A stretch of 64,000 nt of DNA from a virus. The stretch is from IMG/VR virus record IMGVR_UViG_3300032069_000005, positions 22,232-86,231 of that record; one strand, 5' to 3'. Positions 17,233 to 62,958 of this stretch are shown piece by piece (the first letter of the stretch is position 1; each line of letters begins with the position of its first letter). The position numbers and the translations under genes are program-made. The notes under the pieces are model-generated. The model saw only the letters and a list, made by a program, of their open reading frames with translations. It made no database searches and was not told the origin of the DNA.

Positions 17233-17233
17233 A

Positions 17234-17878: not shown

Positions 17879-17882
17879 TTTA

Positions 17883-19669: not shown

Positions 19670-20574
19670 TAAATAAAAAATTATTTTGGTTGTATTTACT
19701 TTCTGCTTCTATTTATGCAACTCAAGGATTAGAAGGGCTTCCTGGATTGCCATTATTCTTTTATCTTAAAGAACATCTTCATTTAACTCCAGAAAAAATA
19801 ATGTGGATTTCGTCGATTATTACTCTCCCTTGGTTAATTAAACCGATATTTGGATTTTTTATCGACAATTTCTTAACTAAGAAAATTTGGATTATTCTTT
19901 CTCTTATTGGAAGTATTTTGGTGTCTTTCTATTTCGGATTATCTCCTTATTTAACTATTCCTATAATTATATTAGTATCGATTTTAGGAAATTTAGCAAC
20001 TGCTTGGAGAGATATTTCAAACGACGGATTGGCGTGTGTAGAAGGCAAAGAAAATAATTGCTGTGATATTTTTCAGAATGTGCAATGGACTTCAATTACT
20101 TTGGCAGGGATTATTACAGGATTAGCTGGAGGATATATTGCCGACCATTTTAATTATAAATTTGCTTATTTATGTTTAATTCCTATTTATTTAATTATTA
20201 TAGGAATTGTATTAAAATATAAAGAACAAAATGCTTTAAAAGAATTAAAAAAACATTATCATAGTTCAATTACCATACATCATAGAAAGAAATCATCTTT
20301 GTTAGGTAACATTCTATCTTATAAAGAACTCTTTGCAAATAAATCATTTTTATTAGGCTGTTTATTTATTTTTCTATTTAATTTTAATCCAAGTTTCGGA
20401 ACACCTTTATTATTTATTGAAAGAAAATGGGGTTGGTCAGGATTTTTTATTGGGTTATTAGGAGCATTAAGTTCAACTATTAGTATTATTGGGGCACTTT
20501 TATATTATAAATTTAGTAAAAAAATTAAAAATAAAGATATGAAAATAATCATTCCAACAATCAAAATAAAATGA
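19666..20574 (+). CDS. MFS/BT1-like transporter, N-terminal part (interrupted)
   Basis: 302 residues with about eight membrane helices, starting in an ATGA overlap with the M16 gene. GLPLFFYLKEHLHLTPEKIMW, LPWLIKPIFGFFID and RDISNDGL resemble MFS transporters of the AmpG/BT1 (folate-biopterin) type. The frame breaks off after the eighth helix (FSKKIKNKDMKII...), whereas the family continues directly to helices 9-12. Those are encoded by 20649-21035 in another frame. About 160 bases of unrelated sequence lie at the break. It is probably an inactivated transporter, unless two-part assembly occurs. Confidence 0.7.
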   Translation: MINKKLFWLYLLSASIYATQGLEGLPGLPLFFYLKEHLHLTPEKIMWISSIITLPWLIKPIFGFFIDNFLTKKIWIILSLIGSILVSFYFGLSPYLTIPIIILVSILGNLATAWRDISNDGLACVEGKENNCCDIFQNVQWTSITLAGIITGLAGGYIADHFNYKFAYLCLIPIYLIIIGIVLKYKEQNALKELKKHYHSSITIHHRKKSSLLGNILSYKELFANKSFLLGCLFIFLFNFNPSFGTPLLFIERKWGWSGFFIGLLGALSSTISIIGALLYYKFSKKIKNKDMKIIIPTIKIK

Positions 20575-20648
20575 AAAATAAATGTAATTGTGGAGGTTAT
20601 AAATTGGGAAAAAGAATTAATAAGAACAAATGAATTAAAGGAAAAATT

Positions 20649-21035
20649 ATGCGTGTGGTTATCGAATATAAAGAAGTTATTTTAGACCTGAAAAATATTC
20701 TGAAATTAAGTGTTTTTATTTCAGCCGGAATTACTCTTTTTTATATTTATTTTACTCCCGTAAGTGCAATTATTTATAGTTGTTTATTTAGTATTTTTGG
20801 TATGTTTATTTTCCTTACTGTTATGACCTTTATGGCAGAATCAACTATTAAAGGAAAAGAATCTACATCATTTGCATTACTTTGTTCTATTAATAATTTA
20901 GCAGGAACTTTATCGATAATGACCGGAGCATTTTTATTACCTTTGCTCGGACTAAAGTGGCTTATTATTTTATCTGCGGGGACTTCATTTTTGTGCTTCC
21001 CCCTAATTGGCAAATTAGGAATAAAAAATGACTAA
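20649..21035 (+). CDS. MFS/BT1-like transporter, C-terminal part (interrupted)
   Basis: 128 residues. From LKNILKLSVFISAGI onwards the sequence gives helices 9-12 of the transporter begun at 19666: TLFYIYFTPVSAIIYS, FLTVMTFMAES, SFALLCSINNLAGT and GLKWLIILSAGTSFLC. The first 13 residues before LKNIL do not fit the family and come from the intervening sequence. A short frame in the same phase upstream (20571-20633, MKNKCNCGGYKLGKR) recalls the Cys-rich starts of the phage's homing endonucleases, a possible remnant of an insertion. Confidence 0.6.
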   Translation: MRVVIEYKEVILDLKNILKLSVFISAGITLFYIYFTPVSAIIYSCLFSIFGMFIFLTVMTFMAESTIKGKESTSFALLCSINNLAGTLSIMTGAFLLPLLGLKWLIILSAGTSFLCFPLIGKLGIKND

Positions 21036-21213
21036 ATTATCTATCGAAGAAAAAACTAAACTAATTGAGAGAATACAGAAATTATTTTCTTTGGGTGATA
21101 GTTCCAGAAATCCCAATGAGGATGAAGTAAAAAGTGCCCTATGAAAAGCCAAACAATTAACGAGACAACATAATTTAAGTTTATCAAAATTAAGGGGAAG
21201 AAATAATGAATAA
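21028..21213 (+). pseudogene. DUF2786-like small protein with in-frame TGA
   Basis: From 21028 the sequence reads KLIERIQKLFSLGDSSRNPNE, then DEVKSAL, then TGA (21142-21144), and in the same frame KAKQLTRQHNLSLSKL to a TAA at 21213. The two halves together match the short DUF2786 domain found in phage and host proteins (KI..LLALA.....NE.EA..AL.KA..LM..HNL). A CGA-to-TGA change would explain the stop. TGA is the ordinary stop of many genes here, so reassignment is unlikely. It overlaps the ClpP start. Confidence 0.55.
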
Positions 21214-21796
21214 AATTTATCGAAATGACGAAGAACCCATTGAAGATATTATCAAAAAAGATGAGCGATATACCGAAGAATATTATTTTCGAGTATTAAA
21301 TAAAGACCGATATATTCTTTTATATGATATTATTACAAATACATCTACCGATATAACAGTTTCTAAAATAAAAGCAATGAATATATTAGATTCAAAGAAA
21401 CCAATTACAATCGAAATTAACAGCCCTGGTGGAGATGTTAGTTGCGGATTCTCTTTAATTAATGCGATTGAACAAAGTATTGCTCCCATTCATACTATTA
21501 TTAGTGGTCAATGTGCAAGTATGGCTGCGTTGATTAGTATTGTAGGAAAGAAACGAAATATATATTATAATTCGTATTGGATGCAACATCCGCTTTCTGA
21601 GGGGCAAGCAGACTATTTGCAGTTTATCAAAGATAGAACCAAATTCTTAATTCATTTAGATAACATAACCAATAATATATTAAGAAAATATACCAAATTA
21701 ACCAAATTAGATTTACGAAAATGCTCTGTTGGAGAACTTTGGCTGTCAGCAGACGAATGTTTAAAAAAAGGCATAGTCGATAAAATAATAAAATGA
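21206..21796 (+). CDS. clpP: ClpP-like serine protease (S14)
   Basis: 196 residues. It has the ClpP fold signatures: ITIEINSPGGDVSCGFSLINAI, the nucleophile Ser in GQCASMAALI, and the His in WMQHPLSEG, followed by a helix and a strand with Asp candidates (TKLTKLDLRKC). The last helix DECLKKGIVDKI is typical. Phage ClpP-like proteins often act in capsid maturation, but this one is far from the head genes and close to host-like peptidases. No ClpX/ClpA partner is present, so it may use the host unfoldase or act alone. AGGGGAAGAAATA is the ribosome binding site. Confidence 0.85.
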   Translation: MNKIYRNDEEPIEDIIKKDERYTEEYYFRVLNKDRYILLYDIITNTSTDITVSKIKAMNILDSKKPITIEINSPGGDVSCGFSLINAIEQSIAPIHTIISGQCASMAALISIVGKKRNIYYNSYWMQHPLSEGQADYLQFIKDRTKFLIHLDNITNNILRKYTKLTKLDLRKCSVGELWLSADECLKKGIVDKIIK

Positions 21797-22506: not shown

Positions 22507-22613
22507 GAATAATTATTGGAATGTTGATTACTTTCTTTATTTTAATAGATGAATTATTTGGATGGTTAACAATTAAGAAATTAAAAAAATTATGGAAAAT
22601 ATTAAACCAATAA
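22488..22613 (+). CDS. 41-residue membrane peptide
   Basis: The ATG at 22488 follows AAAGGAATTAAA at the end of the phosphoesterase gene. The product has one clear transmembrane segment (ICIGIIIGMLITFFILIDELFGW) and a basic tail (KKLKKLWKILNQ). Longer in-frame starts inside the phosphoesterase gene are unlikely. Function unknown. Confidence 0.5.
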   Translation: MHRICIGIIIGMLITFFILIDELFGWLTIKKLKKLWKILNQ

Positions 22614-23884
22614 ATACTGCAATTATTTTAGCTGGCGGTCTGGGCACTCGATATGGCAGCGAAATACCGAAGCAATTCTGTAAGATTAATGGGAAACCAG
22701 CTATTCATTATGTATTAGATGAATATATTGCATCTAATCTATTTCCCAAAATTATCATTGCGATAAATGACCTAAGATACAAATACTTGTTTAAGAATTA
22801 TGATAAAAATACAATCAAAGTAATAAAAGGCGGAGATACTCGCACAAAAACTCTTTATAATGCAGTTCATTATGCCAAGCGGTTTAATCCTGAGAATGTA
22901 TTTATTCAAGATTCTGTTCGCCCATTAATTAAAAAAGAAGACCTACTGCAATATTTAGAAGCCATAAAAGGATTTGATTGTGTTGTTACCTATGAACCAA
23001 TAACAGATGCCCTCTTTGACGATGACCGAGATAAATTTAAATTAATTCAATCTCCTGATGTAGTGAAATTTAAGAAACTCTATCAGGAAATAAATCCCAA
23101 TAATCATACCTCAGCAATCTACCAACAATTAAAAACCCCCAAAATAAACTTCATAAAATTGAACCACGCAAACAATAAAATTACCTATCCTTATGACCTT
23201 TTTATATTAGAACATCTAATAAAATATAATGAGTATTTCCCTCATTCTCCCATTCTAAATGGTCGAACAATATTATTATTGGGTTATTCGGGAGGAATTG
23301 GATATTCAGTTTATGAAAACTTATTACAACGCAATGTTAAACAAATTTGGATTCCTTCTCATAAAGAACTAAATCTGGCGGAAAATTTTGAAGATTCTTT
23401 ATTGAGTAAATATTATGATGTTGATGTGATTATAAATTGTGCAGGAATTCCTTATAAAAATGAAAACTCATTATTATCTCATTATGAAGAAATGATGAAT
23501 GTAAACTTTAGAGCCAATGTCCTATTAATAGAATTTACTAAAAAAATAAGAAAGACATTTCACGATAGACCCATTAATATAGTTACTATTAGTTCTTCTT
23601 CTGCGACAAAAGGTAGACCTGGATTTACTATTTATTCAGCTTCTAAAAGTGCCTTGCATAGCCTGGTCGAAAGTCAGGCAGAAGAACTCGCAAAACAAGA
23701 AATCTATCTCAATTGCGTTTGCCCAGAGAAAGTGAATACTCCTTTTTGGAAAAAATTACATACCCCAATCAATAAATTAGAAACGCTTACTCCACGAGAA
23801 GTGTCTCAAATAGTGGTATCATTTTGCGACACCAAAGAATATGGAAAAATAATTCATATTAGAAAAGGATTGGTTTATGAATAA
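22592..23884 (+). CDS. Cytidylyltransferase-reductase fusion, CDP-ribitol-synthase-like
   Basis: 430 residues in two domains. Residues 1-220 are an IspD/TarI-type cytidylyltransferase: AIILAGGLGTRYGSEIPKQF, GGDTRTKTLYNAV and QDSVRPLI. Residues 225-430 are a short-chain reductase: LLLGYSGGIGYSV as a nucleotide loop, NCAGIPYKN, and YSASKSAL with the catalytic Tyr-x3-Lys. The same fusion occurs in Haemophilus Bcs1/Acs1, which make CDP-ribitol from ribulose 5-phosphate and CTP. The product here is therefore probably CDP-ribitol, used by the LicD/FKRP-like protein two genes downstream. Substrate identity is inferred. Confidence 0.8.
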   Translation: MENIKPINTAIILAGGLGTRYGSEIPKQFCKINGKPAIHYVLDEYIASNLFPKIIIAINDLRYKYLFKNYDKNTIKVIKGGDTRTKTLYNAVHYAKRFNPENVFIQDSVRPLIKKEDLLQYLEAIKGFDCVVTYEPITDALFDDDRDKFKLIQSPDVVKFKKLYQEINPNNHTSAIYQQLKTPKINFIKLNHANNKITYPYDLFILEHLIKYNEYFPHSPILNGRTILLLGYSGGIGYSVYENLLQRNVKQIWIPSHKELNLAENFEDSLLSKYYDVDVIINCAGIPYKNENSLLSHYEEMMNVNFRANVLLIEFTKKIRKTFHDRPINIVTISSSSATKGRPGFTIYSASKSALHSLVESQAEELAKQEIYLNCVCPEKVNTPFWKKLHTPINKLETLTPREVSQIVVSFCDTKEYGKIIHIRKGLVYE

Positions 23885-26228: not shown

Positions 26229-26891
26229 ATGAATGAAATATTAACTGTATTTGTAATTTCTACTCAAAGAAAAGAAAATTATCGAGAATGTATTAATTCA
26301 TTAAAATCTCAGACTATGAATTTTAACTTAATTGAAATAAAAGATATTTCTCCAATGCCAGTCGCTTTTAATAGAATGATTGAATTATATAATCATTCTT
26401 ATTACCATCTTCTAAATAACAATACTGCTGAATTTACTTATACCTCTTATAAATATCAATTAGAAAGTATAAATAAAACTCAAGAAATCATACAAAAACA
26501 TTTAAATTATAAAATTCGCGTATTTGGAGCAGTAGCAAATTCAATAAGTAAAAAAACAATGAGAATTATAGAGCATAATAAAGATTTAACTCATCTTTAT
26601 TATTATCTAAATTATAAAGAAAAAATTCCCAAAATACCTAACAAAAAAGCAATATCAGTAAATGGATATGGTTATTTAGAATTAAACATCGATAATTTTT
26701 CAAATGAAAACCAAAAAATATTAGACTTGCAATCATTTATATTTAATTTTGAAAAGTTTCAAGAAAATCCAATCATTTATCAATTACATCCTCAAATGTG
26801 GAATAACAGAGACTTTTTGCTTTTTGAACAAATATTGAATTATTTAATCTCAATTAATACAAACTTTATTTTCCCAACGGAGATTTTATGA
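26229..26891 (+). CDS. Glycan-related protein, mixed GT2-like / deacetylase-like features
   Basis: 220 residues. The first 45 look like the start of a family 2 glycosyltransferase (ILTVFVISTQRKENYRECI, SLKSQTM). The DxD site that should follow is absent. The end (IIYQLHPQMWNN, FEQILNYLISINTNFIFPTE) recalls the C-terminal motif of polysaccharide deacetylases. The middle matches neither. It could be a degenerate or chimeric enzyme, or a family I do not know. It overlaps the next glycosyltransferase by four bases, so membership in the glycan operon is clear. Confidence 0.45.
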   Translation: MNEILTVFVISTQRKENYRECINSLKSQTMNFNLIEIKDISPMPVAFNRMIELYNHSYYHLLNNNTAEFTYTSYKYQLESINKTQEIIQKHLNYKIRVFGAVANSISKKTMRIIEHNKDLTHLYYYLNYKEKIPKIPNKKAISVNGYGYLELNIDNFSNENQKILDLQSFIFNFEKFQENPIIYQLHPQMWNNRDFLLFEQILNYLISINTNFIFPTEIL

Positions 26892-29449
26892 TAGACAAAA
26901 ATCTATTATATAAGAGATATTATGATACAATGGAAAAATACAAAGAAAATTCTATTATTGAACTTCCCAAACAATTATTCAGAATTTATTTAAATAATCC
27001 CAATGAATCTAATTTTATTGCCTTAATGGGATGCCTGGATAATTTACTTAGTAAAAATCCAGACATTAATTTCTTTTATGTAGATAAATTATACGGAAAG
27101 TTTCTTAATGAAAAACAAAAAGAAATGATTAATCCAAAGAAAAAACTTGTCGTTCAATTGGCTCGTATCCCCTGTGCTAATTGTGGATATGAATTACGAA
27201 ATTTAATAAATACCTATTCAGATAATTTTATTTCTGTATATATTTTGGGACAAGAATACCATGCCAGTTATAAATGGTCTCTTTTTAGAAAATTTCCATA
27301 TGAATTTTTTTGGAAAACGCAAAAAGAACAGTGTATTGAACTTATAAAAAAAGCAGATATAATTCACGCTCATCATCTTTGGGACTTTGAAGAAATACCA
27401 GACTTAATAAAAGATAAAATAATAATCACTACTTTATATGATATTTCGTCTTCGGGTCAGAAAAAATACCAAGAAAGGGTTAAAAAATATAGTTCATTTA
27501 TTACAGTTGCCGACCAGCCATTACAAAAGGAAATATTCAAAGAATTAACCACTTATAGTCTTCCTATAGTTAGATTTCTCTTTAATGAATCAATAATTAA
27601 AAATAATCCAGTTCCCGTTGTTGTATTCGCCCCAACTATAAAAAATTTGGGAAATGATTTACCATTATGCTCTAAAAGAAGAGAAGAAGTATTAGAAATT
27701 ATTGAAAGATTAAAAAAAGAAATGAATTTTGAATTTGACTTAATTGAAGGAATTCCGTATGAAGAAAATCTTGATAGAAAAAGAAAAGCGGATATTATAA
27801 TTGACGATATGAATGATAAGTTTGAGGAATTTCATTGCACTTGTTTTTCAGATGATACCAAAGTTCTTACTGAATCTGGATGGAAATATTTTAAAGATTT
27901 AAAAATGTCAGACAAAATATATTCATTAAATGAAAAGAAAAAAATTATAGAATTATCTAAGATTAAAAGAATTATTAAACAAAATTACAATGGAAAATTA
28001 ATCAATCTCAAAAAACAAAATATTGATTTATTAATTACTCCTAATCATAGAGTAGTATATCATAATGGCTATAAAGATAAAAAATTAAAAATAAAACCAA
28101 TTAAAGATTTAATTTCGAGGTGCAGAATAGATATTCCTACGTCTGGTTTTTTATATGAAAAGTTAAATAGCAAAACATATAATAAAACCGATGCTCATTG
28201 GGCAAAATTCCTGGGATTGTTTTTATCTGATGGATATAGTCATAAAAATCATATCGGATTCCATATAAGAAAAAAATCAACTATTAAAATGTTAAAAAAA
28301 TGTTTACGAAAATTGCATACTCCTTATACAGAATATACATATAATAGAAATAATGTATTAGATACAATAATAAAAATAAGAAAACCCGACACAATTCATT
28401 ATGATGAACTCAGAAAATATGGGAAAACTCACGATAAATTTATTCCCTCTTATCTTTTTAAATCACATCCAAATATCATCAAGGAATTTCTGAATGGATT
28501 TATAGAAGGAGATGGAAGTATCAATAAAAATAATCAAATTACAATATATAATTCCAATAAAAATTTATTAGAAGATATTCAACAATTATATGTTTTAATA
28601 GGAGTATGCACAAATATCATTAGAACATATAATAAACAATTCAAAAAATATTTATTCAGAATCGTAATTAGAAAAAGTAAAAATATAGGAATCGAAATAA
28701 AAAAACATATTAAATTTAAAAAATATAAAGGAAAAGTAGTATGTATTGAATTAAAAACCAATTCTTTAATATATGTAAAAAGAAAAGAAAAATGTTGTTG
28801 GAGTGGAAATTCCTTAGAGGCTGCGTGTTTCGGGGCAATTCCCTTAACCAGTTATAGCGGGGAAGATTATCCATTCACAAAAACAAACATTAAAACTCTG
28901 GAATCTACTTTACGGTTCTATATAAATAATCCAAAAAAACTAAAAGAAGAACAACGAAGAATCGTGGAGTGGAGAAAAACATATTATACTCCAAAAAAAT
29001 TATTACTTCCTTATGAAACATTATACCAAAATCTATTAGAAAATAAACAGATAAAAAAATCTAAAATCATTGAAATAATACCTATAGAACCCCAAACTGA
29101 AGAAAAAAAAGAAATAGTAGTTAAATCAAGCCCCGAAAAAAGAATTGAGGAAATATTTAATATATTAAATGAAAATAAAATTTATTATTGGGCTGCAAAA
29201 GATACTTTATTATCTATTTTCAAAAATATGCCAATAGATACTAACATAATAAAAATAGGAACGACCAATAATACTATTAAACAAAATATTTTAATTTTGC
29301 TCAAGGATATAGATTTAAAAATTGAAATTGAAATAAGACCAAATCAAGAAATTAAAAAATATAGATTTTTGGATATGGATATTAATGTTCCAAAACCATT
29401 AATAAAATATTTGGAGTATTTTACAAAAAAATCATTCAAAAAAATATAA
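26888..29449 (+). CDS. GT-B glycosyltransferase interrupted by an intein
   Basis: 853 residues before splicing. Residues 1-318 carry GT-B features (LARIPCANCGYEL, ADIIHAHHLWDFEEIPD). Residues 319-641 are an intein. The remaining extein restarts with SLEAACFGAIPLTSYSG, the donor-binding E-x7-type block of GT4 enzymes, so joining gives EEFHCT-SLEAACFG and restores the active site. After residue 720 a Lys/Glu-rich linker leads to a C-terminal segment (EIFNILNENKIYYWAAKDTLLSIF) reminiscent of LicD-like nucleotidyltransferases, though its metal-binding Asp residues are not evident. Activity requires protein splicing. Confidence 0.75.
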   Translation: MIDKNLLYKRYYDTMEKYKENSIIELPKQLFRIYLNNPNESNFIALMGCLDNLLSKNPDINFFYVDKLYGKFLNEKQKEMINPKKKLVVQLARIPCANCGYELRNLINTYSDNFISVYILGQEYHASYKWSLFRKFPYEFFWKTQKEQCIELIKKADIIHAHHLWDFEEIPDLIKDKIIITTLYDISSSGQKKYQERVKKYSSFITVADQPLQKEIFKELTTYSLPIVRFLFNESIIKNNPVPVVVFAPTIKNLGNDLPLCSKRREEVLEIIERLKKEMNFEFDLIEGIPYEENLDRKRKADIIIDDMNDKFEEFHCTCFSDDTKVLTESGWKYFKDLKMSDKIYSLNEKKKIIELSKIKRIIKQNYNGKLINLKKQNIDLLITPNHRVVYHNGYKDKKLKIKPIKDLISRCRIDIPTSGFLYEKLNSKTYNKTDAHWAKFLGLFLSDGYSHKNHIGFHIRKKSTIKMLKKCLRKLHTPYTEYTYNRNNVLDTIIKIRKPDTIHYDELRKYGKTHDKFIPSYLFKSHPNIIKEFLNGFIEGDGSINKNNQITIYNSNKNLLEDIQQLYVLIGVCTNIIRTYNKQFKKYLFRIVIRKSKNIGIEIKKHIKFKKYKGKVVCIELKTNSLIYVKRKEKCCWSGNSLEAACFGAIPLTSYSGEDYPFTKTNIKTLESTLRFYINNPKKLKEEQRRIVEWRKTYYTPKKLLLPYETLYQNLLENKQIKKSKIIEIIPIEPQTEEKKEIVVKSSPEKRIEEIFNILNENKIYYWAAKDTLLSIFKNMPIDTNIIKIGTTNNTIKQNILILLKDIDLKIEIEIRPNQEIKKYRFLDMDINVPKPLIKYLEYFTKKSFKKI
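27842..28810 (+). mobile_element. Intein with LAGLIDADG endonuclease in glycosyltransferase
   Basis: 323 residues from Cys319 (CFSDDTKVLTESGWK, splicing block A) to Asn641 (CCWSGN) followed by Ser. Block B is LITPNHRVVY. The endonuclease domain has two LAGLIDADG-type helices: KFLGLFLSDGYSH and FLNGFIEGDGSI. The C-terminal junction is SGN/S, with Gly in place of the usual penultimate His. The insertion site is the conserved donor-sugar motif of the glycosyltransferase, a typical intein location. Confidence 0.88.
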
Positions 29450-38499: not shown

Positions 38500-39237
38500 T
38501 TATTTTTCTCCTTTAAGAAACTTTTTGCCTTTTGATAAATTCTCTTCAGCCCATAAGGGCTGGAGATTAGTATAATGAAAACACTTGCGTTGTTCACTTA
38601 GTTTTCGTAAATCAAATGAAGCACAAGGTCTTATGTGGTCTATATGCCACTCTTTCATTCCTCTACCATTCCAACCACTGCCATAGTTAGACCAACTCAT
38701 TCCTGGTTTAAATTGAGATTCTAAATGAATTTTAAGTTGTTTAACAGAACATCCTATCAATTTAATAGTAGATTCCAACTTAGAATTTCGTTTCAACACC
38801 GCTCTCAATCTATTGGATAAATATAATCTAATTTTAAAAAGTATGTCTTTTTTTAGTTTCAACATTAATTTTTTGTGTATTGTTGTTTTATTTTTTAATC
38901 TATATAATATACTATATTTTATAAGTTTTTCTCTATTTTTATAATAATATTTATGCCGATATTTTTTAATGTCTTTATTTATTGGATTGTGCCTTCCTTT
39001 ATTCCAAGCATAATGTGTTTTAAAATAATTAAAAATTGCTTTGCTCAAATCTCGTCTGTATTTTTTGGATTTGCTTCTATCTTTCATTGTTCCATATTTT
39101 CTTTTAATTAATTTAGTCCTCCCGTCTTTATAATTTCCATTATTTTCTGGTATTCTAACCCATTGGCAATAACATTTCCAACATCTTTTATTTGGATAAT
39201 ATATTTCTTTTCCACAGTCAAGACAATGATTTTTCAT
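38500..39237 (-). CDS. HNH homing endonuclease, WHIDHI type
   Basis: 245 residues. N-terminal Cys knuckle (CLDCGKEIYYPNKRCWKC), a long basic helical middle, and a C-terminal HNH core: KEWHIDHIRPCASFDL followed by CFHYTNLQPLWAEENLSKGK. This differs from the two HNH genes at 51127 and 58948. Free-standing enzymes of this kind cut phage DNA at specific sites and spread by repair. It is wedged between two tail genes with only 2-7 bases on either side. Confidence 0.82.
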   Translation of the reverse strand: MKNHCLDCGKEIYYPNKRCWKCYCQWVRIPENNGNYKDGRTKLIKRKYGTMKDRSKSKKYRRDLSKAIFNYFKTHYAWNKGRHNPINKDIKKYRHKYYYKNREKLIKYSILYRLKNKTTIHKKLMLKLKKDILFKIRLYLSNRLRAVLKRNSKLESTIKLIGCSVKQLKIHLESQFKPGMSWSNYGSGWNGRGMKEWHIDHIRPCASFDLRKLSEQRKCFHYTNLQPLWAEENLSKGKKFLKGEK

Positions 39238-48246: not shown

Positions 48247-49206
48247 TTAACTAAGAATTGCGTCCATATCACAGTAACAAATATCTTTATAACGAGTTAT
48301 AGCCAATGTAATTGCTTCGTAACCAATAACGCCGTATCCTAAAATATTGGTAGTAGAAACTACCTGTAACCCACCGAGATTACTGATTAATCTTTCGGCT
48401 GCATCGGGAGCAATGCCCATTTCTTTTGCAACTCCTGGGTCTATTAAACGTCTCACAAAAAGAATAGGTTTTCCGCCAACGCCTTTTATTTTAGAATTTC
48501 TTGCAACCAATATAGCTGTCTTAGAATCTAAAACTGCAAGAGAAGAACCGCTATCAGTTTTTATCTCGCCGATAACTTTAACTAATTCTACTTTATTCTT
48601 AGCCAATAAATCTTCTGCAATCGTAAGTTTATAATGGAAATTATCTACATTATCCCTATCATATTTATTTATTGCGGTTACAACATCAGCACCAGCTAAT
48701 AAAATAAAATTATCGCCATAATCAGCAACCCGTTCAATCATTTTCTGTATTACTGTCCAAATATCGTCGCCAGTTTCAGTGCAACTAACACTTAAATCAG
48801 GTTCGCCAGTGTCACCATCAAGTGCCAAAATAGCGTCGCAAATCATCTTTACTTCTTTCTTATCCATAGAGCGACCTATTGAAACTTTCTTTCTTGCTAA
48901 AGCGGTATTGTCCGTAGAATCCTGTAACGAATGAAGAGAAACATAAGAAAGTTCTGACTGTAAACCGACAAACGTAAGTTCAGTAGAACCGGAAGGGCTT
49001 TTGCGATTTGCTGTTACTTGTCCGTCTAATCCGGCAGAATAAACTGTATCAGTATTGTCATCATAATCAAATACATAAACTTTTTCCCCAAAAGGAACTC
49101 TATCAATATCCGCTATTTCCAGTAGTTCCACTGGAACTGGAAACGCACTGTCAATAGGCTGACCGATAGTTTTTGCTAACTCTAAGGTAATGTCATTAGG
49201 TTTCAT
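48247..49206 (-). CDS. Major capsid protein (HK97-fold type)
   Basis: 319 residues. It follows the protease/scaffold gene and precedes the connectors, with a long strand-rich sequence, the phrase IDRVPFGEKVYVFDYD near the N terminus, a helix-rich middle (KEVKMICDAILALDGD, WTVIQKMIERVADYGDNFILLAG) and a C-terminal part (GGLQVVSTTNILGYGVIGYEAI) typical of HK97-fold capsid subunits. CAAGGAGAAAAATTTAA is the ribosome binding site. A strong hairpin follows its stop. Confidence 0.78.
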   Translation of the reverse strand: MKPNDITLELAKTIGQPIDSAFPVPVELLEIADIDRVPFGEKVYVFDYDDNTDTVYSAGLDGQVTANRKSPSGSTELTFVGLQSELSYVSLHSLQDSTDNTALARKKVSIGRSMDKKEVKMICDAILALDGDTGEPDLSVSCTETGDDIWTVIQKMIERVADYGDNFILLAGADVVTAINKYDRDNVDNFHYKLTIAEDLLAKNKVELVKVIGEIKTDSGSSLAVLDSKTAILVARNSKIKGVGGKPILFVRRLIDPGVAKEMGIAPDAAERLISNLGGLQVVSTTNILGYGVIGYEAITLAITRYKDICYCDMDAILS

Positions 49207-49226: not shown

Positions 49227-51140
49227 TTAATCGTGCCCGTAGGCTATCCTGTTTATCTTTTTTTGTCTTTTCCGTGAAGGGTCGGTATCTGGTTGTGTAG
49301 TATCGCCAATCTCAAGGCTCGCTTTAGTTTCTTCTGGTTTTACTTCGGCTGCCTGTTCTTGAGATTTCTTCTCAAGTTCTTTTCTGAGATTCGCAATTTC
49401 TGTTTCTTTATCAGTTATCTTTTTTTCTAAATCAACTTTTACTTCGTTAGTTTTGGCTTCTAAGTCAGCAACGTGAAGAGTTATTAATTCTTCTTTAGCT
49501 TTCTTTACTGCCTCTTCTAACTCCGCAAAACTGTATTTCTTTACATATTGCATTTCGCCTTCAACTACATCTTCAGTTCCATCGGAATATTCGGTTATTG
49601 TTTTATAAGAACTTTTTCCTTCCGATGTTCCTGACAAAGTTCCATCTTTATAAGTATCAACATAAATATCACTACTTATACGAGTAACCTTAACTATAAT
49701 CTTCGGTGTTATTGTTTCTACCGGAGTTTGAGCTTTTACTTCCTTCGTTTCTTCGCCTTTAATCTCCGCAGGATTCGTTTCATCGCCCTTAACGGGCTTG
49801 GTTTCCTCTGGGATAATTTCTGGCTTGGTTTCCTCGGAAGATTTCTCTAAAGCATCCTTATGTCTTTCCAAATGTGCACCTGCTTTTTTCTGCAAATCTT
49901 CAGCAGAAATAGAATCAGATATTGGTTTCACCTGACTAACTCTCGCCAAAGCATTTTTATAATGAGGCAAATCTAAATTTGCATTAGATTTTTCTTTCCC
50001 TAAATCTCCTTCGCCATTATGGTGAGGAAGATGCCTTGCATTTTTATCCTGAGTTTTTTCTGGATATGCTGGTTCGATTGCAGCAAACGCTGAATCTGGT
50101 AATCCATTAATGAACTTTCTCGTCCATTTGGTAGCATCTTCGGTTAATTTGGCTCTTTCCTCATCAGTGGCATAATAAAATGCCATAGCAATATCAAAAG
50201 TTATTTCTTCTTCTTTTGTAACATTAGCATATAATTTTTCTAATTCCACTTTTCTTTCCTCCTTTTTGTTATTTTCTTTTGGTAGAATTATTTCTCCCTT
50301 ATCCTGACAAGGGCGATGATACCATTTTTGGTTTTCATCACAGAATAATTCTTTTTCCCCTATTTCTTTTTCACAGTGGGGGCAAATCCATTGTTCAGAA
50401 TCTATCTTTTTTATTACTATTTTTACTTCTTTTCCATGATTACAATTTCCACAATTTACGCAGATTGGTTCTTCTGTAACCAAAGTTGCAAAAACTAAGT
50501 CTTGATTAAAGACTTCATTTGCTATTTTTTCTGCTTCATCTATTATTTTTTTATTGGCTGTAGCCAGTAATTTCTCTGCATACGCTTCTTTACATGCTGG
50601 AGTTTCGCCTTCAATAAGAATACCCACTCCATGATAAATTATCGGGTCGATTGATTTAATACCATTTCCTAAATCATGTAAAACAGAATTACCATTTTCA
50701 TCTTTATTCCATATCTCAAAGGAGACTGCCATTTTATTTTCCTTTACCATTTCTTTCATTTTTTCAAATTCTTCTGGAAATAAAGATTTATATATTGCTA
50801 TATAAGTAACAATTAAATCTTTTTCTAACTTTGCATCTAAAATCCACCCACATATATAATTCTTTCCTAAATGCGACCAGTTGGCTTGCTTCCCCACAAG
50901 TGTAGGAAGTGCTTTTTTAGCTGCTTCTTTAGGCAATACAATATTATTTCTATTTGGAACATCTGTTCTTGCGTAAATTGTTTTTAGTATAGCTATATCT
51001 GGGTTGGGAACAACCAAATTCATTTTTTCTGCTATTTTTATAAGTTCAGAATCTTTTGATATTTCAATAAATTCACTTTTTGATTCTTTTGCTAAATCAT
51101 AAAGATATTGAGCCAATATTTTCTTATTACAATTTTTCAT
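49227..51140 (-). CDS. Prohead protease-scaffold fusion with zinc ribbon
   Basis: The start at 51140 (MKNCNKKIL) follows GGAGGTTTATAAAA. 637 residues. Residues 30-200 resemble phage prohead proteases (VGKQANWSHLGKNYICGWILDAKL, NKMAVSFEIWN). Then come a Cys-rich ribbon (CVNCGNC...CPHC...FCDENQKWYHRPC) and a segment of the LPDSAFA...ARHLPHHN...LPHYKNALARVSQ kind often found in such proteins. The C-terminal 100 residues are coiled coil (LEAKTNEVKVDLEKKITDKE), as in scaffolds. It assembles and matures the prohead. Confidence 0.72.
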   Translation of the reverse strand: MKNCNKKILAQYLYDLAKESKSEFIEISKDSELIKIAEKMNLVVPNPDIAILKTIYARTDVPNRNNIVLPKEAAKKALPTLVGKQANWSHLGKNYICGWILDAKLEKDLIVTYIAIYKSLFPEEFEKMKEMVKENKMAVSFEIWNKDENGNSVLHDLGNGIKSIDPIIYHGVGILIEGETPACKEAYAEKLLATANKKIIDEAEKIANEVFNQDLVFATLVTEEPICVNCGNCNHGKEVKIVIKKIDSEQWICPHCEKEIGEKELFCDENQKWYHRPCQDKGEIILPKENNKKEERKVELEKLYANVTKEEEITFDIAMAFYYATDEERAKLTEDATKWTRKFINGLPDSAFAAIEPAYPEKTQDKNARHLPHHNGEGDLGKEKSNANLDLPHYKNALARVSQVKPISDSISAEDLQKKAGAHLERHKDALEKSSEETKPEIIPEETKPVKGDETNPAEIKGEETKEVKAQTPVETITPKIIVKVTRISSDIYVDTYKDGTLSGTSEGKSSYKTITEYSDGTEDVVEGEMQYVKKYSFAELEEAVKKAKEELITLHVADLEAKTNEVKVDLEKKITDKETEIANLRKELEKKSQEQAAEVKPEETKASLEIGDTTQPDTDPSRKRQKKINRIAYGHD

Positions 51141-51759
51141 TTTTATAAACCTCCAATTTTTGTATATAATATTTTTGCCAATAATCTCTATTATAATTGG
51201 CTCGAACATTGCAAAAATTACATAAAGTAATCAAATTTTCTTTTTCACAGTTCTTTTTATCGTAATCGATATGATGAATATCTAAAACTCTACCTCTAAC
51301 TATCAAATGCTCTTCTTCGGTCATACTACAATTCTGGCACTCATGATTGTCTCTATCACGAATTAATTCTTTAAGTTCGGAATTAAATTCTTTTGTATAA
51401 GGTTCAAAAGAACGACCATCTATCCATGTAGGAGCTTTTTCTCCAAATCGATGAATTCCAAACATCGGATTGCCTTCACCTTTTAATGTTTTATAATAAC
51501 AAGATTTACATCTTTTATCTTTTCTATAATGTGCACTTTCATTTAATTCTTTATTACAGTCTATACAATAACATTTTCTCGAATCTTTGCCACCCTTCCA
51601 TTGATAATGATTTTTGCCTTTTTTATCAAACAATGGATTTGTTTCTGGTCTTGTAGCATATTGATATTTTCTTGCACAAGACTTGCATCGTATAGAACCT
51701 TGATATTTTGATAGTGGATGTAAATTTTTGTTACAATCTATACATTTGTTATATTTCAT
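51127..51759 (-). CDS. HNH homing endonuclease with zinc knuckles (copy A)
   Basis: 210 residues. Several CxxC knuckles (CIDCNKN...CKSCARK; CYCIDCNKE...CKSCYYK) and NUMOD3-like NPMFGIHRFGEKAP precede the HNH core: RDNHECQNC, VLDIHHIDYDKKNC and LCNFCNVRANYNRDYW. It lies between portal and protease genes, its 3' end spanning the next gene's ribosome binding site. The C-terminal 70 residues are very similar to the gene at 58948. Confidence 0.88.
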   Translation of the reverse strand: MKYNKCIDCNKNLHPLSKYQGSIRCKSCARKYQYATRPETNPLFDKKGKNHYQWKGGKDSRKCYCIDCNKELNESAHYRKDKRCKSCYYKTLKGEGNPMFGIHRFGEKAPTWIDGRSFEPYTKEFNSELKELIRDRDNHECQNCSMTEEEHLIVRGRVLDIHHIDYDKKNCEKENLITLCNFCNVRANYNRDYWQKYYIQKLEVYKNEKL

Positions 51760-53440: not shown

Positions 53441-56179
53441 TTAATAAACTCCCATTCCTGGTTTTTCATTTTCTTCTACAGGATTTATATTTTTAAATTC
53501 AAAATTCCATTGACAAATACTGAAAACCTGAAATGCCTGATGCAAATGGTCAGCTCCCTTATTTCCATAAACAATTCTTTTATCACTTCTTAAAACTACT
53601 TCATTATCAAACTGAACATCTAATTTACTATCAAAATGAGCGAGAATTTTTTGATTATAGAATAAGTGTTTTATTCTCTGAATACTCCAATCTACGATAT
53701 ATTCTTCCTTATAGGTTGGTGTTCCTGATTTATCTCTTAAAATTTCATTTGTTTTTTCGTCTCTTTCAAAATCTATAGAAATTTTCTCATTAAAACTAAC
53801 TCCAAAAATATGTTCGCCATTTGCTGTATTATATTTTTTTGCCAAATAACTGAACATTGCTTTTCCACCGCCGGAAGTAACATCAATTCCTACAATATTG
53901 GCTCGCAATATTCCAATAATAAAATCAACAATTTCATTATCTTCATCTGGAGAAAGTTTATAAGTCGTAATATTAAGTTCGTATTTATAAAGTTCTTTTG
54001 TTTCAAATAGCACTATTATTTCTGTGGGTGCTGAACCTTCTCCTTTATCTACCGCAATCCAAATTCGTTCTGCATTATTGGGTCTAATTAAAATTAAATT
54101 TTCTTTATAACGATGAAAATTATTTTTATTTATTTCAAACGCTTTTATAGGTATTGGTTCGCCATCTTTATCTCGTTTATAACATAAACGAACTCTCTCA
54201 ATATCATAGACACTTTCACCATCGTCTACTATTTGTCCCAAAATCTGCGTCCTGTAGCCAGGAGAGTTTCCAGACCACATACATTTTTTATTTCTTCTAA
54301 TATATATGGTATGATTTGGCTCGGTTTCAATGCACCAAATGTTTCCTTCATAATATATTTCTTTTATTCGATTTACATAAATATACGGTTCTCTTATACT
54401 CTTCCTTTCACTAATTAAATATTGGTCTCTATCTTTGCGATAGCTAATAGTAGCATAATTTCCTGATTTAATAATTAATTCTTGTAAATCATTCGACAAT
54501 TGTTTAGATGAAGTATAATAGTTTTTCCTTTTTCCATCTCCATCGCCTTTATTAAAAGCATCTAAAAATAAATTAATCTGTCTTTTACTTAAATTCCTTA
54601 TAAAATTAGGAACTTTTTTGTTTCTGGCATATTTCAAACAATTTTTCAATAAATATTTTCCTAAAACTTTATTTGTAATACTAAAACCACCATAAGAAAA
54701 CTTATCTCTTAGATTTAAATTATATAATATGTTCTGTATTTCTTGAATGTATTCTTGGGATTTTGATTGAGAAATTTGAATCCTATAATGAATCCATTCA
54801 AATATTCCTCTTTTTTCTTTATACTCATAGACACACCCCTCACTAACAAACCATCCAAGAAACTGCAAAAAGAAATCCATATTATATTTTATTTTGCCGA
54901 TTTTTATAGATTTTTTTTCATTTCCAATCCAATTCATATTCTGATTTAGTTGAAGTTTATTTACAGGATAAAATTCATATTGGGAAGTATATTTATTTTT
55001 GCATCCATAAGAGCAAAAATACTTTTGTTTTTTCTTATATGACTTATCTAATTTTAATCCACATTCTAAACAAAAATCAGTATCATATAATTGATAATTT
55101 TTCTTAATCGCTTTATGAGAAAGAATGGTTTCTAAATCTATTAATCTAAAATCTTTTTTTGGTGTTTTAAATGGAATTTTGTGATTAGAAGTAACCAAAA
55201 AATCTATTACCAAATTATTATATTCGTATAATTTCCCTTCGTAATCATATTTAAAAATGCTTTTAATTCTTTGATATTTTGTAATATTTTTTCCTATATT
55301 CCAACTAACTACTAAATCTTTATTGTTAATATTAAAAATGTTTTTCCATCCATTGTTAGTTAAAATTTCAGTATTAGAATCAAAACATTGTTTTCCGCCG
55401 AACTCTTTTTGGGCTGCTTCATCTTTTTCAGAATCCCAAGAAGGATTGGCGTAACTCGGAAGATTTACAATAATATTCTCGTTTTTTATATCAAGAAATT
55501 TTCTTCCAATCGGAGATTGCTTTTTGAAATTGGTCATTCCAGATAATCTTTCCACCATTCCCATTTCTGATTGTGCCATTAATTTTTTATTAGAAATTGC
55601 ATCTGTAAGAAAACTTCCTTCTTCTTCCCAATTCTTATCGGCATGTTTTTGATACCAATTTTTTCCTGGAGCTTTTCCTGCAAAAGTATTATTTACAGAT
55701 TCTATTCTGACCCCATTTTTAAAATTTAATAAATATGGATTCGCTCTTGATTTTATTCCTAAAGATTTAAGAATTGGATGATTTTCAAAAGCAGGAATTA
55801 TTATTTGCATTATTCCACTTATTTTAGCAGCATCACAACTGGAAAGAATTCCCCATTTACATATTTTATGCCACACCGAAAGAAGTATATCGACATTAAT
55901 TCCTATCCAGCTTTTTCCAGTAAGTCTTCCACCAAAATTAAGACAATCACCTAATCCTTTCTTTATTCTAAAATTTTCTTTTTTTGTTAGTTCTGGATTT
56001 TCAAAGAACTGACTTTCAAAACTTAACATTGGATATTGGTATTTTCTTACTTCTGCAAATTTATTTTCTTCAAAAGAACTTAAATCATCTAAATTACTAA
56101 ACATCACCTCAGTGCAACTAATTGGATTTGCTAAAATTTCAAATACTGCCAGCTCTTCTGGTGATATTTTACTCAGCAT
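53441..56179 (-). CDS. terL: Terminase large subunit interrupted by an intein
   Basis: 912 residues before splicing. The ATPase part has Walker A GGRLTGKS (residues 83-90) and ILSSCDAAKISG. Residues 265-638 are an intein. The C-terminal extein is the nuclease: IWIAVDKGEG, IVGIDVTSGGG and DHLHQAFQVFS carry the RNase H-fold Asp residues. Splicing joins EFGGKQ to SPGYRTQ. The enzyme cuts and pumps DNA into proheads through the portal. CAGGAGATTATAA is the ribosome binding site. It overlaps the small terminase by 11 bases. Confidence 0.9.
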   Translation of the reverse strand: MLSKISPEELAVFEILANPISCTEVMFSNLDDLSSFEENKFAEVRKYQYPMLSFESQFFENPELTKKENFRIKKGLGDCLNFGGRLTGKSWIGINVDILLSVWHKICKWGILSSCDAAKISGIMQIIIPAFENHPILKSLGIKSRANPYLLNFKNGVRIESVNNTFAGKAPGKNWYQKHADKNWEEEGSFLTDAISNKKLMAQSEMGMVERLSGMTNFKKQSPIGRKFLDIKNENIIVNLPSYANPSWDSEKDEAAQKEFGGKQCFDSNTEILTNNGWKNIFNINNKDLVVSWNIGKNITKYQRIKSIFKYDYEGKLYEYNNLVIDFLVTSNHKIPFKTPKKDFRLIDLETILSHKAIKKNYQLYDTDFCLECGLKLDKSYKKKQKYFCSYGCKNKYTSQYEFYPVNKLQLNQNMNWIGNEKKSIKIGKIKYNMDFFLQFLGWFVSEGCVYEYKEKRGIFEWIHYRIQISQSKSQEYIQEIQNILYNLNLRDKFSYGGFSITNKVLGKYLLKNCLKYARNKKVPNFIRNLSKRQINLFLDAFNKGDGDGKRKNYYTSSKQLSNDLQELIIKSGNYATISYRKDRDQYLISERKSIREPYIYVNRIKEIYYEGNIWCIETEPNHTIYIRRNKKCMWSGNSPGYRTQILGQIVDDGESVYDIERVRLCYKRDKDGEPIPIKAFEINKNNFHRYKENLILIRPNNAERIWIAVDKGEGSAPTEIIVLFETKELYKYELNITTYKLSPDEDNEIVDFIIGILRANIVGIDVTSGGGKAMFSYLAKKYNTANGEHIFGVSFNEKISIDFERDEKTNEILRDKSGTPTYKEEYIVDWSIQRIKHLFYNQKILAHFDSKLDVQFDNEVVLRSDKRIVYGNKGADHLHQAFQVFSICQWNFEFKNINPVEENEKPGMGVY
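54266..55387 (-). mobile_element. Intein with LAGLIDADG endonuclease in terminase
   Basis: 374 residues from Cys265 (CFDSNTEILTNNGWK) to Asn638 (CMWSGN), followed by Ser. Block B is FLVTSNHKIPF. A four-Cys zinc knuckle (CLECGLKL...CSYGCKNKY) precedes the endonuclease domain with helices FLGWFVSEGC and FLDAFNKGDGDG. The C-terminal SGN/S lacks the usual His before Asn, as in the glycosyltransferase intein, and the last 12 residues of both inteins are alike. Confidence 0.9.
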
Positions 56180-56941: not shown

Positions 56942-58948
56942 TTACCAATTTACTCCCACACAATGAAGTTTTAAATCTTTATTATTGTGAGTTGTAATTT
57001 TCCATTTCATTTGTGTTCCAGAAGGTTGTCCAGAAATGTCTACCGCATCCGATACTAAAATCCTTTTTCCAGTATCATAATCTCCCTCATCTGTCAAAGT
57101 ATGCTGTGTCCAATTAGAACCATTATTTCTTGAAATATACGCCTTTAAATCTGTATTAAGAGTAATGGAATCTACATCTTCTTCCATAATTACTATACGA
57201 GATTGTGTTGGTGCTTCTTCTGCTATTGTTGCCAAAGAAATAAGAGTCATATTATTAAAAATTGTATTATAAGTTTTAAAATTAAAATTAACATCGTTCC
57301 AATACGACCAAACCGCATCGTCGTAATAATGCCCCCTAGCAGTTAATACTTCCACATTTCCGCACCATTCAATATAATTAGTATTATCTACTCCTCTATC
57401 ATCATTTAAAACTATCCAATATTTTGTTCCTAAAGTCAATGATATTGGTGTAGTAAAAGTAAAAGTATAATAAGTATCACTTGTTGATATTCCCGAAACA
57501 TCTAATGCAGAGCTATCTATTCCTATCTGAGTAAGCGGGTCGCCGCTTCCATTATCAGAATAAATTTCTACCCACATATTTCCCGTAGGAGAATTTACTT
57601 TTCTTAATTGAACAGCTATTTTAGATAAATCGTAATTTTCAGTAGGAGTAAAAGGATAAGCTAACAAACTTTGACCGGTCTTACTTAAACCTACTCTATT
57701 ATCTACCACCACATCTCTGCTATCTTTTAGATTATCAGTAGCTGTTGGTTTGTATAAATCATTTGAAGAATCATAATCTTGATTTTCCGATGTATCTGTG
57801 TCTACTCCGGTTTCATCTTCAAATTCATCCATTAATCCATCTAATAAATTAAATTTTATTAAACTTCCTTGAACTGCTAATTTAAAAAATCCTAACATTA
57901 AATTATAAAATAATTTATTTATAGTTCCTGCCAAGCCAGCCAATTGGCTGTGGTCATAAGTTCCTTCGTGAGTAGAAACTGCTCCGAGAGGTTCTTTATT
58001 ATCTAAACTTTCTTGAACAGTTATGCCTGTCTCATCAGTAGGAATTTCCGATGCGACTTGGTCTGCCGTAGCTCCATCTTCTATCCCATCAAGTTTAGTT
58101 CCATCTACAGATAAATCTCTGCCATCTATTTTTATACCAGAAGCAACATCTAAATCCGATTTTAATAAGCCATTATTTATCAATTCTGTTTCATTAATAG
58201 TTACATAAGTCTCAAAATAATAATCTTCAGCAACTTTACTCCAACTTCCTGCTCCACCAGTTACCCTGCTTCCTCCACTATAAACATTTGTGTTATTTTT
58301 TATTAATTCTACTTCACCAGATGAACTAAAAGTAACTGCATACATTACCCCAGATATTACTGAAGCTGGAATATTAAAAATTACATCAAATTCTCCACTT
58401 TCTGAGGGAATGTTATCACTTGAAATATTAACTGTAGCCAAAACATTCCCATTTGGTAATTCATTGGTAACTTCTTCTATATTTACTGTGAGAGTATCTG
58501 GATTTTGGCAATACCCTTTCAAAATTATTTTACTCAATAAACCTGTTCGTTCAACAGTAAAAGTCTGCCCTTCATTCTGTGCTTCCTTGGCTGATGTTCC
58601 TGTAGTTTGCTGCTGGTCTAAAATTTCCTCATTTGCCTGTATCAAAGTGTTATCTGTATTTTGGTCGTGTAATTGAGCAAAATCAGGTTTTCCACTTATA
58701 TTATTCCAATCTACTTCAGAAGCATTTCCAACATTTATCCAATCAGTCAATTCCCCCGAAGAAGATGAACTATTCCAAGTATACATACTATCATTGGATT
58801 TTACAACATAACAATCATTCTCGGAATTTCCTGTCAAAGGTAAGTCATTGACAGTAGGCACAGTTCCTTTTAATTTTAATAAAGCAGTATCCAATATTAA
58901 ATTAAACTGTCCGGTGCGGGGGTTGATTTTTTGTTTAAAAATACTCAT
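56942..58948 (-). CDS. Large tail fibre/appendage protein
   Basis: The start at 58948 (MSIFKQKINPRTGQFNL) follows GGAGGAATTTTATA; longer frames begin inside the HNH gene. 668 residues. The N-terminal TGQFNLILDTALLKLKG and YVVKSNDSMYTWNSSSSSG are typical of fibre start domains. There are two jelly-roll-like modules (QTFTVERTGLLSKIILKGY; YDLSKIAVQLRKVNSP with TLGTKYWIVLNDD) and fibre-like stretches (DLDVASGIKIDGRDLSVDG). It probably binds the host surface. An HNH gene is inserted just upstream. Confidence 0.65.
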   Translation of the reverse strand: MSIFKQKINPRTGQFNLILDTALLKLKGTVPTVNDLPLTGNSENDCYVVKSNDSMYTWNSSSSSGELTDWINVGNASEVDWNNISGKPDFAQLHDQNTDNTLIQANEEILDQQQTTGTSAKEAQNEGQTFTVERTGLLSKIILKGYCQNPDTLTVNIEEVTNELPNGNVLATVNISSDNIPSESGEFDVIFNIPASVISGVMYAVTFSSSGEVELIKNNTNVYSGGSRVTGGAGSWSKVAEDYYFETYVTINETELINNGLLKSDLDVASGIKIDGRDLSVDGTKLDGIEDGATADQVASEIPTDETGITVQESLDNKEPLGAVSTHEGTYDHSQLAGLAGTINKLFYNLMLGFFKLAVQGSLIKFNLLDGLMDEFEDETGVDTDTSENQDYDSSNDLYKPTATDNLKDSRDVVVDNRVGLSKTGQSLLAYPFTPTENYDLSKIAVQLRKVNSPTGNMWVEIYSDNGSGDPLTQIGIDSSALDVSGISTSDTYYTFTFTTPISLTLGTKYWIVLNDDRGVDNTNYIEWCGNVEVLTARGHYYDDAVWSYWNDVNFNFKTYNTIFNNMTLISLATIAEEAPTQSRIVIMEEDVDSITLNTDLKAYISRNNGSNWTQHTLTDEGDYDTGKRILVSDAVDISGQPSGTQMKWKITTHNNKDLKLHCVGVNW

Positions 58949-59661
58949 TATAAAATTCCTCCATTTTTGGTTAGAATATTTTGTATTTTTTCTTGATAAA
59001 TCTTTTGCCAATAATTTCTGTTATGATTGGCTCTCGTGTTACATTGTTGGCAAGTAGTAATCAAATTATATTCCTGGCAATTCTTTTTATCATAATCAAT
59101 ATGATGAACTTCTAAAACTCTACCCATAACTATCAAGTGTTCTTCTTCAGTCATTCCGCAATTCTGACATTCGTAGTTGTCTCGTTTGCGGATAGAATCT
59201 TTGAGGGTTTTATTAAATTCTTGTGGATAAAGTTCATAACTTCTTCCATCTATAAAACAATGATTTTTACTTCCTAATTGAAAACATTTCAAACAGTATT
59301 TTGATTGTGGTCTAATAATTTTCTTACAATTTAAACATTTATTCTTGGGTTTTCTTCTAAATATTCCCGAACAATGCTGACATCTCGTCGAATAAATATT
59401 TATCACTTTTCCGCAATCGATACATTTTTTATTTTTAATATTGTTTCCGTGTTTATAATTTGAATTTCTAATACCTTTACTTGCACAAGAATGGCAATAA
59501 TTGGCGTAAAAATTATTTAATTCTTTACCACAATCTTTGCACTTATGCTCTTTTTTGTGCCGCGTTCTATATTTTTTATTACATAAATTGCATCTTTTAT
59601 ATTTTGGTTTGCTAATTTCTTTATTACAGTCTATACAATAAAATTTAGTTTTATATGACAT
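58948..59661 (-). CDS. HNH homing endonuclease with zinc knuckles (copy B)
   Basis: 237 residues. At least five CxxC knuckles in the first 140 residues, then the HNH core RDNYECQNCG, VLEVHHIDYDKKNC and TCQQCNTRANHNRNYW. The core is very similar to the gene at 51127 while the N-terminal zinc regions differ, consistent with a spreading endonuclease family. Its last codon overlaps the start of the fibre gene. Confidence 0.88.
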   Translation of the reverse strand: MSYKTKFYCIDCNKEISKPKYKRCNLCNKKYRTRHKKEHKCKDCGKELNNFYANYCHSCASKGIRNSNYKHGNNIKNKKCIDCGKVINIYSTRCQHCSGIFRRKPKNKCLNCKKIIRPQSKYCLKCFQLGSKNHCFIDGRSYELYPQEFNKTLKDSIRKRDNYECQNCGMTEEEHLIVMGRVLEVHHIDYDKKNCQEYNLITTCQQCNTRANHNRNYWQKIYQEKIQNILTKNGGIL

Positions 59662-62336: not shown

Positions 62337-62384
62337 ATAAAAAAAGCCCAAAACAAAGTCTAAAACATAACTTTATCTTGAGCT
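62337..62384 (-). terminator. Strong intrinsic terminator upstream of first virion gene
   Basis: On the minus strand, AGCTCAAGATAAAGT pairs with ACTTTGTTTTGGGCT over 15 bp (three G-U pairs, 10-base loop), followed by TTTTTTT. It ends the structured RNA region and lies only 15 bases before the first virion start codon. Confidence 0.85.
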
Positions 62385-62756
62385 TTAACTTTTGGGAGTG
62401 GTTCTTGGGAGACGCTTGGCGACTCCTGTTACCACTCTGAAATTCCGACAATAAAAGAAGTCGGATATAATAACATTAAGAGTAGCTACTCAGTTGAAGA
62501 GCGACTTCAACTTATCCTATTCGCTACCCTGTATCCTTTTCTACTCAATTTGCCCTGCTTGCAAACAGATAGGAATGGCTCACCTTTCGAGTGTATACAT
62601 AACCTTTTCCGAGCCAAAGTCGACCAGGCATCCCCAATCCAATTACCTTTGAAAGTCAGAAAAGGAATAAGTATCAAATTTAATAAGCGATTTTCGTATT
62701 TTATGGCACGCACTCTATCGCTTGAAACGTCGCCAATGCTCTACAACGAGCTTACA
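62339..62756 (-). ncRNA. Candidate structured RNA or leader at head of virion operon
   Basis: About 415 nt between a near-consensus promoter (62763-62790) and an intrinsic terminator. Visible stems, in transcript order: GCTC/GAGC near the 5' end; AAGCGAT/ATCGCTT (62684-62723); CCTTT/AAAGG; GGCTC/GAGCC (around 62577-62614); CTGTTTG/CAAGCAG; GTTGAAG/CTTCAAC; a GAGTAGCTACTC palindrome; CCGAC/GTCGG; and a nested GAGTGGT...ACCACTC hairpin (62395-62437). The region is clearly richer in G and C than its flanks. Short frames in it lack ribosome binding sites. I cannot match it to tmRNA, RNase P or 6S. Confidence 0.6.
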
Positions 62757-62762
62757 CTACTA

Positions 62763-62790
62763 AGTATATATCAAAAATCGATTTTGTCAA
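62763..62790 (-). promoter_or_regulatory. Sigma70-like promoter for leftward virion transcription
   Basis: On the minus strand, TTGACA (62790-62785) and TATACT (62768-62763) are spaced by 16 bases, within an AT-rich upstream tract. Transcription would start near 62756 and run through the structured RNA into the virion genes. It is the best promoter match noticed in the window. Confidence 0.78.
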
Positions 62791-62958
62791 GTAATATTTT
62801 TTATTTTTTACTTAATAATATAAATACTTAATACTATTGTATTTATATAATCAGTTTTATGCCAAATTTATAATCTCTCTCTTCCCCCCCTAATACCCCT
62901 CTATCTTACTCTTATTATAATATTGTTACTGTAACTGTTACTATAATACTATTAATTG

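Follow-up and report, generated by a model that had tools for sequence, protein, structure and literature searches.

An orphan copy of a DUF3800-associated hairpin in the leader of a phage virion operon, and a possible role for it as an RNA decoy

The window, by which we mean the whole 64,000-nucleotide stretch of viral DNA analyzed here, contains an operon of virion genes preceded by a promoter, a leader of more than 400 nt and an intrinsic terminator. The features of this region are listed in Table 1 together with genes noted elsewhere in the window.

Table 1. Features of the leader region and other genes noted in the window
Feature	Position	Strand	Remarks
Promoter region	62756..62800	-	TTGACA at 62790, TATACT to 62763, then TTAGTAGT
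Predicted leader RNA, ~419 nt	62338..62756	-	bounded by promoter and terminator; fold z -4.8; GC 0.399; homologue in G044
Outer stem with 5' bulge, hairpin at apex	62603..62665	-	domain fold; similar asymmetric outer stems in relatives
DUF3800-type hairpin GGAUUGGGGAUGCCUGGUCG	62621..62640	-	7-bp stem and 4-nt loop between flanking Gs; match to covariance model R1
Second conserved leader block (CTCGGAAAAGGTTAT...GAGTAGAAAAG)	62536..62613	-	78% identity over 78 nt in G044
Intrinsic terminator, 18-pair stem plus T7	62337..62386	-	stem 62386-62343; kept in G044
First virion-operon gene, 111 aa	61987..62322	-	no Pfam match; L003 homologue 76% identical, same place
Probable large terminase	53441-56179	-	split by LAGLIDADG intein
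Glycosyltransferase-like protein	26888-29449	+	second LAGLIDADG intein within it
Three HNH-like homing-endonuclease-type genes	51127-51759, 58948-59661, 38500-39237	-	among virion genes
Host-like cluster	17222-21796	+	peptide deformylase, M50 protease, M16 peptidase, BT1/MFS transporter, Clp protease
AdoMet synthetase (PF01941)	12702-13643		
IspD-like cytidylyltransferase fused with short-chain dehydrogenase	22592-23884	+	adjoining glycosyltransferase-like genes

The first-pass annotation of this DNA had described a near-consensus promoter on the minus strand, followed by a GC-rich, hairpin-dense leader that has no credible ORF and ends in a stem plus T7 terminator 15 nt short of the first virion start codon. 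Most of this description was borne out. TTGACA-16-TATACT (62790-62763, minus strand) matches the consensus at 11 of 12 positions, a 45-nt copy that is 82% identical to the leader promoter and has TATATACTTAGTAGT in common with it lies 5' of an HTH gene in the same genome (G000:C1:10367-10411), and in the sister phage L067 the promoter reads TTGACA-18-TATACT and its -10 is extended; a promoter-like box is found at the same place in another sister phage, L003. The HTH gene that follows the promoter copy (L002 1501-1560) is small, and the ORF directly before the copy has, by appearance, a sigma-70 region 4-like C-terminal sequence. The GC content of the leader exceeds that of the window (0.302) to a degree seen in 1.3% of equal-sized stretches, and the longest ORF on the minus strand of the leader body is a 68-aa GTG frame, with no convincing gene. 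The terminator, whose stem has 18 pairs, is separated from the ATG at 62322 by about 15 nt, an interval with no strong promoter match. The claim of hairpin density was upheld only in part: the z score against shuffles is strongly negative for the whole leader, but falls to -1.9 when the terminator is removed, indicating that most of the excess fold stability is that of the terminator. By thermodynamics alone the density is therefore modest, and conservation is the better evidence.

The conservation of the leader was evident in related phages. The G044 phage, found by a portal homology search, has counterparts of three leader blocks at 78-91% identity, namely a hairpin block (33 nt, 91% identical), the second block (E 8e-13) and the terminator (64 nt, 81% identical), and the gene that comes next is of the type of the window's first virion gene. 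The second block has two small hairpins of its own. The L003 leader has a terminator hairpin at the same place and little sequence in common with the window except an 18-nt hairpin, and in L003, G043 and G048 this hairpin lies inside the terminator loop itself. The order of promoter, hairpin, terminator and virion gene is retained in relatives. Because the blocks are kept in G044 and the hairpin is found in the terminator loop of G043, G048 and L003, we conclude, from sequence comparison, that the leader is a genuine RNA unit that evolves within this phage group. The part of the earlier interpretation that this conservation supports is that the virion genes are preceded by a structured leader RNA having a promoter and a terminator of its own. 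The main feature of the leader, a 20-nt hairpin that also occurs in phage tmRNAs and in a bacterial RNA unit adjoining DUF3800 genes, lay beyond what the first-pass annotation could see. The proposed Rfam comparison was negative, as no family, including GOLLD, ROOL, the DUF3800 families and BjrC68, matched the window leader at threshold, and ARAGORN and Rfam detected no tmRNA in it; tmRNA, tRNA, GOLLD, ROOL and any other Rfam family were accordingly dropped as identities of the leader. Direct BLAST of the leader against annotated phages gave chance-level matches only.

The hairpin within the leader belongs to a family with the consensus GGRYUGGGGANNCCYGGYCG, consisting of seven pairs and a four-base loop with G on both sides, and it usually caps a longer stem with an asymmetric bulge; outer stems similar to that of the window are present in L003, L041, L067, L335, L336 and L337. 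A covariance model, R1, was built solely on copies from bacteria and tmRNAs, with the window excluded. R1 gave one match in 67 kb, at window 62640-62621 on the minus strand (32.5 bits, E 7.2e-5, 7/7 pairs formed); the window hairpin has the GG/G-flanked 7-bp stem and 4-nt loop of the family and fits its model. L003 also gave one match (E 0.002), and across 27 related loci (248 kb) no further match had E < 1. The stem has conserved U.G wobble pairs. In a set of 21 different hairpins every pair is formed, four of the seven pairs vary on both sides, and none of 500 shuffles reaches this, with the reservation that some rows had been chosen for pairing, which inflates the paired percentage. The core of the first alleles is constrained by the search, because those alleles were collected by pattern.

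In all eight records bearing the hairpin with a portal gene (G000, which is the window's own, G001, G004, G006, G019, G043, G044 and G048), it lies 4-16 kb upstream of that gene on the same strand. Besides the window's own, five hairpin-bearing phages were reached by protein homology and not by pattern; G019, G043, G044 and G048, which were reached in this way, have the hairpin at E 0.001-0.004. Among records with a portal identity of at least 44%, the hairpin was absent from 4 of 9, and in those four the sequence available ahead of the portal gene amounted to just 3.8-10 kb. The virion protein encoded at 48250-49206 gave no matches when used as a query for relatives.

The hairpin is not confined to virion leaders. 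Scans of viral contigs placed it in 31 distinct phage permuted-tmRNA contexts, classed by flanking sequence, and in those that were aligned to Rfam (RF04321) the hairpin is an insertion relative to the consensus. About 20 other noncoding viral places carry it, often before or inside terminators. Exact matches to the 18-mer in viral contigs numbered 34, which is close to a rough chance estimate, and many of them were coding (DWGFLV codons); the idea that all such matches are meaningful was rejected. The exact-match count alone is not significant, and it is context that separates the true copies; we kept only noncoding viral copies with the flanking G and the outer structure. BLAST of the phage tmRNA segment against annotated phages found no match. 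A relation to RAGATH hairpins gained no supporting evidence, and mimicry of 16S helix 45 was dropped because the loop differs.

In a scan of bacterial genomes, the hairpin and a terminator were found convergent with the 3' end of DUF3800 genes, with a usual distance of about 40-60 nt to the stop codon. Loci with DUF3800 that were found by pattern numbered 30, and among the clear hairpin-terminator units DUF3800 was present in 27 of 37 and absent from 10. Of the units without it (L160, L191, L227, L219 and others), some are near genes that look nuclease-like by eye (GIY-YIG, HNH, DUF1016-like). Promoter-like hexamers often precede the bacterial copies (mean score 7.8 vs 5.2 for shuffled sequence). 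Coding matches in bacteria were largely of the 'GLGNPGR' kind, which we take to be pth, and BLAST of the bacterial RNA against E. coli genomes gave no match. We also approached the association by homology, using tblastn to locate DUF3800 genes in temperate phages and plasmids. At 8 of the 13 loci obtained in this way the gene is faced by a hairpin of equal size with a terminator and a different, covarying stem, and the strict hairpin was absent from the other five. A second allele, taken from alphaproteobacterial DUF3800 loci, was then used to search viral contigs with one pair left free; the free pair was complementary in all 11 matches, and DUF3800 was absent from 10 of these and present in one (L305).

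We defined a whole unit as a hairpin with its terminator immediately behind it and a convergent DUF3800 gene no more than about 60 nt away. The window differs from this in that its terminator starts about 235 nt downstream of the hairpin, and in that PF12686, the Pfam family of DUF3800, is not found in the record. It is the hairpin, rather than the complete hairpin-terminator-DUF3800 unit, of which the window has an orphan copy. No DUF3800 gene was detected in 24 phage records (23 and the window's own), several of which are fragments. The sequences show the anatomy of the leader, the hairpin, its place in the family by model and covariation, its association with DUF3800 in bacterial genomes and its occurrence apart from that gene in phages. 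Two temperate phages have a DUF3800 gene of their own: that of Pseudomonas phage JBD68 (jbd68_43; L288) is faced by a divergent hairpin and a terminator, and that of Paracoccus phage Pkon1 (p21; L289) adjoins a CI-like repressor gene.

The AF2 model of DUF3800 (pLDDT 94) had RNase HII as its best PDB match (E 1e-4), and an RNase H-like fold is predicted from it, in line with PMC10910872. Neighbors of DUF3800 genes include type I RM systems (5 loci), a type III methylase and AbiEii. In the literature searched no toxicity or defense activity was reported for this DUF3800 clade, and PADLOC has no model for DUF3800.

The best reading of the genome context, in our view, is that the bacterial RNA restrains DUF3800 and that phages display copies of it. 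Since bacteria otherwise keep the hairpin beside DUF3800 in defense regions, the phage may use it as a decoy. The strong phage promoter would produce the leader RNA of the virion operon, mostly stopped at the terminator, with an orphan copy of a short hairpin-terminator RNA that faces DUF3800 in bacteria and mobile elements. We infer that this bacterial RNA binds and restrains DUF3800 as an RNA-antitoxin-like partner of a defense nuclease, and that phage hairpins carried in abundant RNAs (the virion leader, tmRNA and terminator ends) would act as a decoy during infection, for which high expression would be needed. That the leader keeps the host DUF3800 silent in this way is a realistic but tentative proposition. 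Terminator-controlled entry to the virion operon may exist beside such a role.

The leader could instead be a transcription switch, in which the terminator blocks the virion genes until a phage factor binds the hairpin or the second block and gives read-through. The position of the terminator just ahead of the virion genes, the lack of a strong promoter match in the gap, the retained order of elements and the hairpin in the terminator loop of three phages are consistent with this; however, tmRNAs carry the same hairpin, and bacterial RNAs have it immediately ahead of their own terminator, settings in which antitermination would be pointless, and no antiterminator gene was identified. We regard a switch as rather unlikely but as a serious rival. 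The comparison with the lambda Q and HK022 put leaders, which also have a terminator before late genes, meets the same difficulty, and nothing qut-like or put-like was identified in the leader. A general protein-binding or stability element, recognized by a common host RNA-binding protein in many RNAs including the DUF3800 RNA, would explain the hairpin in unrelated RNAs (tmRNAs, leaders and terminators) and the 10 bacterial units without DUF3800, but most bacterial units do adjoin DUF3800, the independently found DUF3800 genes have their own hairpin allele, and phages carry matching alleles; we regard such an element as improbable, though it too is a serious rival. Each record has one copy of the hairpin, even at 3 mismatches, and in several phages it is near virion or terminase genes, as might be expected of a site for a virion or packaging protein, yet other phages have it in their tmRNAs and it occurs in bacterial chromosomes as well, and most tailed phages are not known to need RNA for packaging; we give this explanation very little weight. 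A mobile DNA hairpin or homing target spreading among noncoding sites would fit the scattered distribution and the insertion relative to the tmRNA consensus, but is scarcely credible given that the conserved U.G wobbles and the sense-strand placement in RNA genes point to RNA and that each record has a single copy.

The decoy reading has a precedent in the pseudo-ToxI of phage PhiTE, a phage noncoding RNA that mimics the RNA partner of a host defense nuclease, ToxIN (PMC3475682). ToxI is a repeated 36-nt pseudoknot (PMC3475682), whereas the leader has a single hairpin and its putative partner is predicted to be RNase H-like. Type III toxin-antitoxin systems combine an endoribonuclease toxin with an RNA antitoxin that neutralizes it; what is predicted for DUF3800 is an RNase H-like fold. 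Structured RNAs adjoining DUF3800 genes were already noted by Weinberg et al. 2017, as cited in PMC10910872, and these candidate RNAs resemble the present units in that position. Rfam has DUF3800 families (e.g. RF02969, RF02968; PMC11701678), but the bacterial units and the window score below threshold with them, and the phage copies are without the gene. The Bradyrhizobiaceae sRNA BjrC68 (RF02353) likewise has a hairpin followed by a terminator, and it matched DUF3800 units at 26.3, 21.0, 20.6 and 20.1 bits, below its gathering threshold of 39; its first hairpin is longer, and the literature searched mentions no link between it and phages or DUF3800. Phage members of the permuted tmRNA family (RF04321) carry the same hairpin, but the window leader is not a tmRNA. 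In the part of the literature searched, there was no earlier report of orphan hairpins in phage leaders or tmRNAs.

More broadly, DUF3800 and its facing RNA could constitute an unrecognized RNA-controlled module of bacteria, prophages and plasmids, serving in defense or as a toxin, that is countered by allele-matched hairpins in the abundant RNAs of many phages, a generalization that we consider possible but somewhat doubtful. The pairing with the hairpin, the defense neighbors and the phage orphans suggest a testable role, RNA-controlled defense, for DUF3800, a family without a known function. If true, it would mean that phages have a widespread RNA counter-measure; it would also account for some of the unusual structured RNAs that phage genomes encode, and the hairpin would give a simple sequence marker for them.
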